From positions 62,001-126,000 of the forward strand of contig NZ_BBXG01000023.1 of assembly GCF_001570605.1 (NCBI RefSeq): 64,000 nucleotides of DNA. Reading direction: 5' to 3'. Position numbers and translations under genes: made by a program. Shown here one piece after another: positions 12,835 through 60,444 of the stretch. The notes under the pieces were generated by a model that saw only the letters and a program-made list of their open reading frames with translations, did no database searches and was not told the DNA's origin. The stretch's first letter is position 1. The number at the start of each line of letters is the position of its first letter. The stretch is from Herbidospora cretacea. GTDB lineage: Bacteria > Actinomycetota > Actinomycetes > Streptosporangiales > Streptosporangiaceae.

Positions 12835-12886
12835 CTGTTCGGAACAGGCGCGACCGCGCGAGGGCCGTCGTGCTAGCGTTCGAGGC

Positions 12887-12937
12887 ATGCAGCGCGCCTA
12901 CATGACGACGACGCCGGACTCCGTCCCGGCGCGCTGA
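12887..12937 (+). CDS. Threonine attenuator leader peptide
   Basis: A 16-residue leader, MQRAYMTTTPDSVPAR, with three consecutive ACG Thr codons, 82 bases before the threonyl-tRNA synthetase gene. The codons sit inside a hairpin (CAGCGCGCC 12890-12898 pairs with GGCGCGCTG 12928-12936), and a terminator-like hairpin follows. The combination is the classic layout for ribosome-mediated attenuation: low charged tRNA-Thr stalls the ribosome on MTTT and prevents termination. ATG 12902 inside the peptide is an alternative start. The regulatory role is inferred from this arrangement. Confidence 0.75.
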   Translation: MQRAYMTTTPDSVPAR

Positions 12938-12951
12938 CCACTGCCTTACTT

Positions 12952-12981
12952 CGAAGCCCGGGGCGCACGCCCCGGGCTTCG
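12952..12981 (+). terminator. Attenuator hairpin upstream of the ThrRS gene
   Basis: A perfect 13-bp stem (CGAAGCCCGGGGC / GCCCCGGGCTTCG) with loop GCAC, followed 15 bases later by CCCCCTTTT. It lies between the Thr-rich leader peptide and the synthetase gene, where an intrinsic terminator of an attenuator is expected. Confidence 0.75.
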
Positions 12982-13018
12982 GTGCTGTGCGCCCCCTTTT
13001 CACCTGGGGAGACGCATC

Positions 13019-14224
13019 GTGTACGACCACCGCAAGCTCGGCCGTGAACTCGACCTGTTCGACGGCGATCCGCTGATGGGCGCGGGGCTGCCCTTCTGGC
13101 TGCCCGGCGGCGCGGCCGTCCGGATGGCGCTGGAGGACTACGTCCGCGACGTCGAGAGACGCAGCGGTTACCAGCACGTCTACTCGCCGATCATGGGCAA
13201 GCGCGAGCTCTACGAGATCTCCGGGCACTGGGACCACTACCACGACGACATGTACCCGCCCATGTCGATCGGCGGGGAGCAGGTCGTGCTGCGGCCCAGC
13301 CTGTGCCCGCACCACGCGCTGATCTACCGGTCACGGGGGCGCAGCTACCGCGAGCTGCCGCTGCGGCTGGCCGAGCTCGGCGGGATGTACCGGTCGGAGC
13401 TGTCGGGAGTGCTCGGCGGGCTGAGCCGGGTGCGGGCCATCCAGCTCAACGACGCCCACATCTTCTGCACCGCCGGCCAGGCCGTCGACGAGGCCCGCGC
13501 CGCCCTGGAGCTGATCGGCGCGGCCCACGCCGCCATGGGGATCAGGCCGGTCCGCCACCGGCTGTCGCTGCCGGGGTCCTCCGGGAAGTACGTGGCGGAT
13601 CCCGGGCTGTGGGAGCGGGCGGGGGAGATGCTGCGGGAGGTCCTCGACGGGATCCCCTACGAGGAGGCCGAGGGGGAGGCCGCGTTCTACGGGCCGAAGA
13701 TCGACGTGCAGATCGCCGACAACCTCGGGCGGGAGTCGACCCTGTCGACCGTCCAGATCGACCTCTACCAGCCCGCGCGGTTCGGCCTTGAGTACACCGG
13801 GCCCGACGGGGCCAGGCACCGGCCCGTCATGGTCCACCGGAGCATCGTCGGGAGCGTGGAGCGGGCCGTGGCGCACCTGATCGAGGTGCACGGGGGCGCG
13901 TTCCCGGCCTGGCTGGCGCCGGTGCAGGTGGCGGTGCTGCCGCTGGGGGAGGACGCGGTGGCCTTCGCCGACGCGGTGATCCGGCGCTGCGTGGACCTCG
14001 GGCTGCGGGCCGTGGTGGCGGGACCGGAGAAGGGCAGCCTGGGAGCGCGGATCCGGGAGGCGCGGCTGGTGCCGTACCAGCTGGTGGTGGGCTCCCGCGA
14101 GGCGGCGGCCGGCTCGGTGTCGATCCGGCTGCGGGACGGGCGCAGACTCGGCCCCCTGGGGCTGCCCGAGGCGCTGGGGAAGATCGCGGAGATCACCTCG
14201 CGACGGGAGGGCGAGCTGTGGTGA
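13019..14224 (+). CDS. thrS: Compact threonyl-tRNA synthetase (no TGS or editing domain)
   Basis: 401-residue class II synthetase covering only the catalytic core (about 1-295) and anticodon-binding domain (about 300-395). A standard ThrRS is about 640-680 residues and carries N-terminal TGS and editing domains, both absent here. The zinc ligands are kept: Cys96 (LCPHH), His147 (NDAHIFC) and His273 (VMVHRS). Motif 2 Arg125 is present. However, the E. coli Gln381 position is Leu143 (QLND instead of TQDD) and the usual WQ pair near E. coli 478-479 reads ST. GTG 13019 has GGGGAG upstream. It is probably a second, attenuator-controlled ThrRS, for stress or for resistance to a ThrRS inhibitor; altered amino-acid specificity cannot be ruled out. 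Confidence 0.82.
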   Translation: MYDHRKLGRELDLFDGDPLMGAGLPFWLPGGAAVRMALEDYVRDVERRSGYQHVYSPIMGKRELYEISGHWDHYHDDMYPPMSIGGEQVVLRPSLCPHHALIYRSRGRSYRELPLRLAELGGMYRSELSGVLGGLSRVRAIQLNDAHIFCTAGQAVDEARAALELIGAAHAAMGIRPVRHRLSLPGSSGKYVADPGLWERAGEMLREVLDGIPYEEAEGEAAFYGPKIDVQIADNLGRESTLSTVQIDLYQPARFGLEYTGPDGARHRPVMVHRSIVGSVERAVAHLIEVHGGAFPAWLAPVQVAVLPLGEDAVAFADAVIRRCVDLGLRAVVAGPEKGSLGARIREARLVPYQLVVGSREAAAGSVSIRLRDGRRLGPLGLPEALGKIAEITSRREGELW

Positions 14225-60240: not shown

Positions 60241-60334
60241 CTCGTAACCACAACTGAATATCTCAGCACCACCCGTGAACCCAGTGCCCCGCGTCCATCC
60301 CGCGGAAAAAGAGGGCCGGTCCTCGGTAGTGGCC

Positions 60335-60367
60335 CCCGGTCGACGCGACCGGGCGCTTCGATCGAAG
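60335..60367 (+). promoter_or_regulatory. Structured pnp leader element
   Basis: CCCGGTCG-ACG-CGACCGGG (60335-60353) is a perfect 8-bp hairpin, followed by the palindrome CTTCGATCGAAG (60356-60367). They lie about 80-110 bases before pnp, where PNPase autoregulatory stem-loops are cleaved by RNase III in other bacteria. Confidence 0.5.
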
Positions 60368-60444
60368 ACCGGCGCCGCACCTCCGGGGAGCCGGCGAAAC
60401 ACCAGAAGGACGTGGGGTGACCGACCCGATCAAGGAGGTCCCCC

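Follow-up and report, generated by a model that had tools for sequence, protein, structure and literature searches.

The compact threonyl-tRNA synthetase (ThrRS) gene of Herbidospora cretacea stands behind a threonine attenuator that is real and widely conserved, and threonine codons are divided between the two: the leaders use ACG almost exclusively, and the synthetase genes are nearly free of ACG and ACA. We analyzed the 64,000-nucleotide stretch of DNA containing this locus (the window) together with related loci from other genomes. The reading that we consider probable is ribosome-mediated attenuation with sequestration of the SD, acting on an ACG-sparing gene for a reserve enzyme. An attenuator of this kind was already known; new here are the codon split between leader and gene and the SD decoy.

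The relatives came from a scan of named genomes, and the best 80 of 452 relatives were used; the 80-row alignment consists of 79 of these relative loci and the window. The features of the locus are as follows.

12874-12879, + strand: -10 box TAGCGT, which would put the transcript start at or beside the leader ATG, from TANNNT across the 80 rows.
12887-12937, + strand: leader peptide ORF MQRAYMTTTPDSVPAR, 16 codons, a leader of this type being found in 79/80 relatives (best 80 of 452).
12890-12898, + strand: 5' side of the protector stem (region 1a), CAGCGCGCC, pairing with 12928-12936 in the MFE fold.
12905-12913, + strand: regulatory codons ACG ACG ACG, ACGACGACG in 79/80 rows and ACTACGACG in one (best 80 of 452).
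12912-12917, + strand: second protector strand (region 1b), CGCCGG, complementary to CCGGCG at 12926-12931.
12923-12929, + strand: region 2, GTCCCGG, its CCCGG present in 80/80 rows (best 80 of 452).
12952-12981, + strand: P2 hairpin (regions 3 and 4), 13 bp, with the loop GCAC at 12965-12968.
12958-12964, + strand: partner of region 2, CCGGGGC, in the 5' arm of P2.
12960-12968, + strand: putative decoy strand X, GGGGCGCAC, the SD-like loop strand of P2, from X:tail energies with own and swapped partners.
12987-12996, + strand: tail GTGCGCCCCC, able to pair with X or with the SD region, from folds and co-variation.
12997-13000, + strand: TTTT, which follows the tail and not P2, read from the sequence.
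13006-13016, + strand: SD region GGGGAGACGCA, which pairs with the tail and is thereby sequestered in the MFE structure, from the fold and co-variation.
13019-14224, + strand: compact threonyl-tRNA synthetase (thrS2-like), 401 aa, from TIGR00418, PF00587, PF03129 and its codons.

The first-pass annotation had described a 16-codon leader with three ACG codons before a compact ThrRS, and this was confirmed. The leader runs from the ATG at 12887 to the stop codon at 12935-12937, and the motif TTTP..[VL]PAR, followed directly by the stop, occurs at the equivalent place in 79/80 relatives (named genomes, best 80 of 452), so that the leader is not a chance ORF; the exception, L029, had only 102 nt of upstream sequence. 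Judged from these sequences, the same 79/80 (best 80 of 452) present what is expected of a leader-peptide attenuator, a short ORF with regulatory codons before the gene. The closest ThrRS among the matches listed are from Herbidospora, with 88-90% identity in the best segment. Across the 80 rows (best 80 of 452), the ATG and the first ACG are 15 to 54 nt apart, with eight different distances. From the first ACG to CCCGG, the distance is 20 nt in 80/80 rows (best 80 of 452), a spacing that the search pattern itself set, although this pattern dropped only L029. In two loci of the second set, L220 and L257, the spacing is one base shorter.

A covariance model of the element found matches in 63 of the 394 genomes of the class (60 newly read loci plus L089, L091, and L092). 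The match precedes a compact ThrRS in 59 of these genomes and a full-length ThrRS in 2; of the other two, one lies at a contig end (L215) and one has no ThrRS in the stretch (L268). This last match (G546:C11; E value, 8e-5), with ThrRS absent from the fetched stretch, is probably a chance hairpin. The model missed the leader of G712. A loose DNA pattern matched 300 of the 394 genomes and was dropped as unspecific. L093 and L098 have an in-frame stop, with 1 and 5 ACG, respectively, and L097 shows no clear leader, with 1 ACG among its 15 Thr codons.

The transcript is probably leaderless, judging by the promoter region. Of the 80 rows, the window included (best 80 of 452), 69 have TANNNT at -13 and 10 have it at -12, and a -10 box that close to the leader ATG implies an mRNA that probably begins there. 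The S. lividans thrL transcript was mapped as leaderless in the report on that species, drawn on here in part (PMC8079986).

The 132-nt stretch from 12887 to 13018 folds with a z score of -4.3, and none of 200 shuffles was as good. A hairpin enclosing the Thr codons, also proposed earlier, is indeed present as the stem CAGCGCGCC (12890-12898)/GGCGCGCTG (12928-12936). The complementarity of region 1b has equivalents, read by eye, in the distant loci L094, L096, and L105. Region 2 can form 7 bp with the 5' arm of P2 in 68/71 sequences; in the second set, where 50/59 loci were parsed for this pairing, 37 have the full 7 bp, 3 have 6 bp, 9 have 5 bp, and 1 has 4 bp. Changes on both sides of this helix are seen in L094 (GUCCCGG:CCGGGAC), L096 (GAUCCGG:CCGGGUC), L105 (CUCCGG:CCGGAG), and L265 and L266 (UUCCCGG:CCGGGAG). 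The locus can form either the region 2:P2 arm helix or P2 itself, two mutually exclusive helices; the region 2 pairing co-varies, and its spacing from the Thr codons is fixed. In L220 and L257, a shift of frame gives a different peptide past TTTP and leaves the RNA as it is, which makes the RNA the conserved entity. In 9/9 sequences tried, P2 is more stable than the form with region 2 paired to its arm, and the refolding barrier between the two amounts to 7-13 kcal/mol in these nine sequences. No T-box was found in an Rfam search of the whole window at the gathering threshold. The sole match at this threshold is an Actino-pnp RNA (RF01688) at 60315-60373 (+), with 66.6 bits.

The hairpin described earlier as a 13-bp terminator-like structure followed by TTTT exists, at 12952-12981, but the TTTT does not belong to it: it lies 15 nt beyond, directly after GTGCGCCCCC, and this tail is complementary to P2's own loop strand. 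TTTT within 10 nt of P2 was found in 0/87 sequences. A GC-rich hairpin with an immediate U-run, which would define an intrinsic terminator, is therefore absent from 87/87, and we rejected this candidate. What the sequences contain in place of the textbook layout is a helix, conserved and co-varying, that hides the SD of the gene. The tail:SD energy is -17.7 kcal/mol with the own partner versus -15.2 with swapped partners (85 distinct; 0/5,000 permutations, kinship ignored), and its z score against shuffled tails is below -1 in 69/85. For X:tail, the values are -18.0 versus -16.4 kcal/mol (86 distinct pairs; 0/2,000 permutations, kinship ignored), with 0/5,000 permutations for 33 variants, kinship again ignored. 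For L069 and L079, the average common tail gives stronger X:tail pairing than their own tail does. In L048 and its relatives, loop strand, tail, and SD change jointly, from GCGAG/CUCGC/GCGAG to GCAAG/CUUGC/GCAAG. L024, with a misparsed hairpin, was excluded from the X:tail energies, the SD release test, tail:SD, and the U-run count. The co-variation of X:tail and tail:SD argues for control at the SD with a decoy, and we consider SD control of the output more likely than termination, although not proven. The earlier proposal of a ribosome-mediated threonine attenuator therefore holds for the conserved Thr codons, the register, and the mutually exclusive pairings, and fails for textbook intrinsic termination; leader codons and stems are conserved in the relatives.

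We propose that the element would work as follows. The mRNA would begin, probably leaderless, at the leader ATG. A ribosome covers about 12 nt; if any of the three ACG codons occupies its A site, this footprint would leave region 2 free, while at the stop codon it would cover region 2. When the ACG-reading tRNA-Thr is charged, the ribosome would reach the UGA and cover region 2, P2 would form, and the tail would hide the synthetase SD (OFF). Without translation of the leader, the protector stem would retain region 2, with the same OFF outcome. When the ACG-reading tRNA-Thr is uncharged, the ribosome would halt on ACG, and the free region 2 would pair with the nascent 5' arm of P2 and slow the formation of the hairpin. 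The SD-like loop strand of P2 could then bind the tail, so that the SD would remain open (ON).

The step that frees the SD did not show up in equilibrium folding. With the region 2:P2 arm pairing forced, the mean unpaired probability of the SD was 0.34 OFF versus 0.33 ON, and the SD was more open by over 0.1 in ON than in OFF in 2/71 sequences and less open in 3/71; the test covered 71/87 sequences, as 16 had no SD at the expected distance by the rule used. At equilibrium, pairing of region 2 was thus not seen to open the SD. As P2 is also the stabler form, either kinetics would have to drive the final step or P2 serves as a U-less terminator. SD release is for this reason an inferred step of the model.

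In the 80 compact genes (best 80 of 452), threonine is encoded by ACC 791, ACT 26, ACG 1, and ACA 0 times, and in 137 flanking ORFs (coding-like, picked by GC3 and GC2), by ACC 1,732, ACG 889, ACT 44, and ACA 89 times; ACG thus makes up 1/818 in the compact genes (best 80 of 452) versus 889/2,754 in the flanking ORFs. ACG and ACA are both absent from 79/80 compact genes (best 80 of 452), while only 1/135 flanking ORFs with at least five Thr codons has no ACG. The 56 compact genes of a second set, among them the gene of the window itself and one from a previously sampled genome, gave ACC 453, ACT 9, ACG 2, and ACA 1 (ACG 2/465). Within the window, 28 ORFs are coding-like (263 ACG), and of those with at least five Thr codons, thrS2 alone lacks both ACG and ACA. 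For no other amino acid does codon use differ to a similar degree between compact genes and flanking ORFs. The next-largest shifts are AAA for Lys (0.16 versus 0.05) and TGT for Cys (0.19 versus 0.10). The compact genes also encode somewhat little threonine, with 5/401 residues in the window enzyme and means of 2.7% and 2.1% in the two sets versus 3.9% for the cores of leaderless full-length enzymes; the ranges overlap.

The housekeeping thrS does not share the purge: that of the window genome has 10 ACG among 28 Thr codons, and that of ten other genomes has 6-18 ACG (15-50%, counted over open frames). The purge is nevertheless not confined to the compact enzyme. G599, G735, and G712 have no compact ThrRS and instead carry a full-length thrS with a TTT leader, and in these genes ACG amounts to 0/24, 0/21, and 0/22, respectively. 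In seven relatives whose full-length thrS has no detected leader, the counts are 1/29, 5/27, 5/23, 4/34, 4/22, 4/22, and 1/22; the comparison of 0/67 with a leader and 24/179 without gives a Fisher P value of 0.0005, kinship ignored. Two of the leaderless genes, L269 (G455) and L276 (G539), are ACG poor, with 1/29 and 1/22, and their genomes have no compact ThrRS above the family cutoff; they either have a lost or undetected leader or speak against the link between leader and purge. Among distant leader-bearing genes, L094 and L096 have 0/7 and 0/14 ACG, L105 has 1 ACG and 1 ACA among 12 Thr codons, and L093 has 1 ACG and 2 ACA among 13.

One tRNA-Thr each with the anticodons TGT, CGT, and GGT was found in the window genome, where 58/63 tRNA matches were typed. 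We assigned Thr codons to isoacceptors by standard decoding rules. With these rules, leader and gene depend on different isoacceptors: the synthetase gene, nearly without ACG and ACA, requires only tRNA-Thr(GGU) and would be translatable while the ACG-reading isoacceptors are empty. In the threonine synthesis genes of ten genomes, ACG accounts for 69/179 Thr codons in thrC (39%) and 18/91 in the hom domain (20%), with zero ACG in individual hom stretches that have 5 and 9 Thr codons. A general codon bias for threonine starvation is not supported by these figures, and because thrC and hom are unpurged, the tentative scheme given below would have blocked charging as the selecting condition rather than lack of threonine.

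The compact gene starts with GTG at 13019 and has ACC as its only Thr codon (five times). Its family assignment is clear by sequence, with a TIGR00418 match above the cutoff at model positions 172-561 of 565; the product consists of the class II core and the anticodon-binding domain only, and the N-terminal TGS/editing part is absent. It is a second synthetase, as the window genome also has a full-length thrS (G000:C8). In our alignment to E. coli ThrRS, we take the aligned E. coli Leu to be residue number 489. The window enzyme has Gln at this position, as do 80/80 compact enzymes (best 80 of 452) and 54/56 in the second set. Leader-controlled full-length enzymes (n = 3) have Gln in two and Met in one, leaderless full-length enzymes (n = 17) have Leu in 16 and Met in one, and distant leader-bearing compact enzymes (n = 3) have Gln in two and Leu in one. 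A second contact, M411 (human numbering), is Ser in 80/80 compact enzymes (best 80 of 452) and Met in the 3 leader-controlled full-length enzymes. Inhibitor contacts are thus changed at the L489 and M411 positions; the H309 position is His in all enzyme sets. According to the portions compared of one report, mutations of E. coli ThrRS at H309 and L489 raise the Ki of borrelidin 300- to 1,000-fold, and the ThrRS of the borrelidin producer is altered at the L489-equivalent position (PMC4389257).

The altered contact residues suggest a reserve-enzyme role, in which the compact ThrRS would serve when the housekeeping ThrRS is blocked, e.g., by borrelidin-type inhibitors; its predicted insensitivity to such inhibitors is a lead and not a result. 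A fuller scheme would divide the threonine code, with ACG in the leader, read by tRNA-Thr CGU/UGU, as the alarm and a gene of either ThrRS type, purged of ACG and ACA, made from charged Thr-tRNA(GGU). A ThrRS inhibitor would be the selecting condition, the enzyme would be insensitive to it, and the SD would be freed by a decoy strand that mimics it. We put forward this complete scheme tentatively, at slightly below an even chance.

Several other explanations have to be weighed against this. The output could be textbook transcription attenuation, with P2 as a U-less terminator, region 2 pairing as the antiterminator, and the SD helix as secondary. The classical 1:2, 2:3, 3:4 layout fits this, the greater stability of P2 over 2:3 with a barrier of 7-13 kcal/mol (nine sequences) suits a quick decision by RNA polymerase, and equilibrium folding does not free the SD; however, TTTT is missing within 10 nt of P2 in 87/87, the S. 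lividans thrL is likewise without a U-run in the portions of that report compared (PMC8079986), and tail:SD and X:tail co-vary, so we hold it to be rather unlikely. That the absence of ACG from the synthetase gene reflects drift, high-expression bias, or ancestry unrelated to the leader gains from the small number of Thr codons (about 10 per gene), shared ancestry, and the two ACG-poor leaderless full-length genes, but is very improbable given 1/818 versus 889/2,754 with no comparable shift for other amino acids, the single flanking ORF in 135 (at least five Thr codons) without ACG, and a purge that recurs on the other thrS type under a leader. Less credible still is nascent-peptide arrest by the conserved PESVPAR: TTTP..[VL]PAR varies little within the first set (best 80 of 452), but L220 (TTTPEVSRRAD, then stop) and L257 (TTTPDHPRRADS, then stop) lost the peptide by a frame change and retained the RNA, and the leaders of full-length thrS differ too. 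We regard this candidate as disfavored to the point of being hardly tenable.

What the element senses, and for what purpose, can also be read differently. We take thrS2, SCO3778, and the compact gene to be one and the same gene. A WblC/WhiB7-type box, GAAAWY, stands at -46/-45 from the leader ATG in 24/80 rows (best 80 of 452); it does not occur in the window, which has only GGAACA at that place. In S. coelicolor, thrS2 belongs to the WblC regulon, whose activated genes are induced with translation-targeting antibiotics, as stated in the parts of the source used (PMC7157823), and a sigma-E site at SCO3778 under ethanol stress is given in the part consulted of another (PMC10771440). Box and regulon would suit a leader that senses generally slow translation, i.e., antibiotic-stalled ribosomes, and not threonyl-tRNA, but the fixed spacing between the three Thr codons and region 2, together with a ThrRS as the downstream gene in 61/63 element genomes, makes this distinctly improbable. 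The enzyme might instead serve ordinary threonine limitation, with no special role for ThrRS inhibitors. The leader logic alone would detect uncharged tRNA-Thr whatever its cause, and the L489 pattern is a matter of sequence; on the other side stand the unpurged synthesis genes (39% and 20% ACG in thrC and hom) and the activation of thrS2 by WblC within an antibiotic-induced gene set in S. coelicolor, as reported in the portion compared (PMC7157823). We consider this alternative possible, if doubtful. Our preferred reading remains attenuation with SD sequestration before an ACG-sparing gene for a reserve enzyme, with uncharged ACG-reading tRNA-Thr as the predicted signal.

Two ThrRS genes controlled by uncharged tRNA-Thr are also found in B. 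subtilis, where thrS and thrZ are under T-box antitermination; the window locus differs in that it has no T-box or other Rfam match at the gathering threshold. In S. coelicolor, Vecchione and Sello (2010) reportedly described an auxiliary TrpRS that resists indolmycin and is controlled by ribosome-mediated attenuation. The likeness lies in a second synthetase, a leader-peptide attenuator, and an inhibitor-insensitive reserve, the insensitivity of the ThrRS being a prediction only; the ThrRS element differs in that its output is probably at the SD, and a codon split is impossible for TrpRS because tryptophan has one codon. Indolmycin resistance through an auxiliary TrpRS is also reported in the portion used of PMC9437257.

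Synthetase leaders known in Actinobacteria include thrL of S. lividans (PMC8079986) and those of trpS and leuS (PMC1262725), as named in the parts compared. In 2005, a conserved RNA structure for actinobacterial threonine operons had not been seen, according to the part of that study compared (PMC1262725), and thrL of S. lividans was listed in 2021 (PMC8079986). In S. lividans TK24, thrL-thrS (SLIV_19412/SLIV_19410) has the leaderless leader MKRVRPFLETTPGFVPAR before a ThrRS and, like the window, one hairpin and no U-run, making it an equal element type by sequence; it was published as an isolated example whose termination was called "not clear," and the portions compared contain no cross-species comparison, SD helix, codon split, or enzyme type (PMC8079986). 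In Actinobacteria, the LEU elements of leuA and the T-boxes of ileS control the start of translation by hiding the SD, as proposed here, but concern other genes and RNA layouts, and a T-box reads tRNA directly without a ribosome, as described in the part compared of PMC1262725. Neither the codon split nor the SD decoy was found in the open-license literature searched.

The theory of selective tRNA charging by Elf et al. (2003) holds, in the portion drawn on, that the tRNAs of attenuator codons lose their charge first (PMC1183508). If our reading is true, the ThrRS element would carry the other half of this theory to an extreme, pairing a sensor that reads only ACG with a gene almost devoid of this codon, in a pattern that spans more than 100 actinobacterial genomes and includes a different enzyme type, and the locus would offer a clean test case in laboratory Streptomyces. 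It also suggests that many soil bacteria keep a second, inducible ThrRS as a safeguard against naturally occurring inhibitors of the enzyme, paralleling the TrpRS case.
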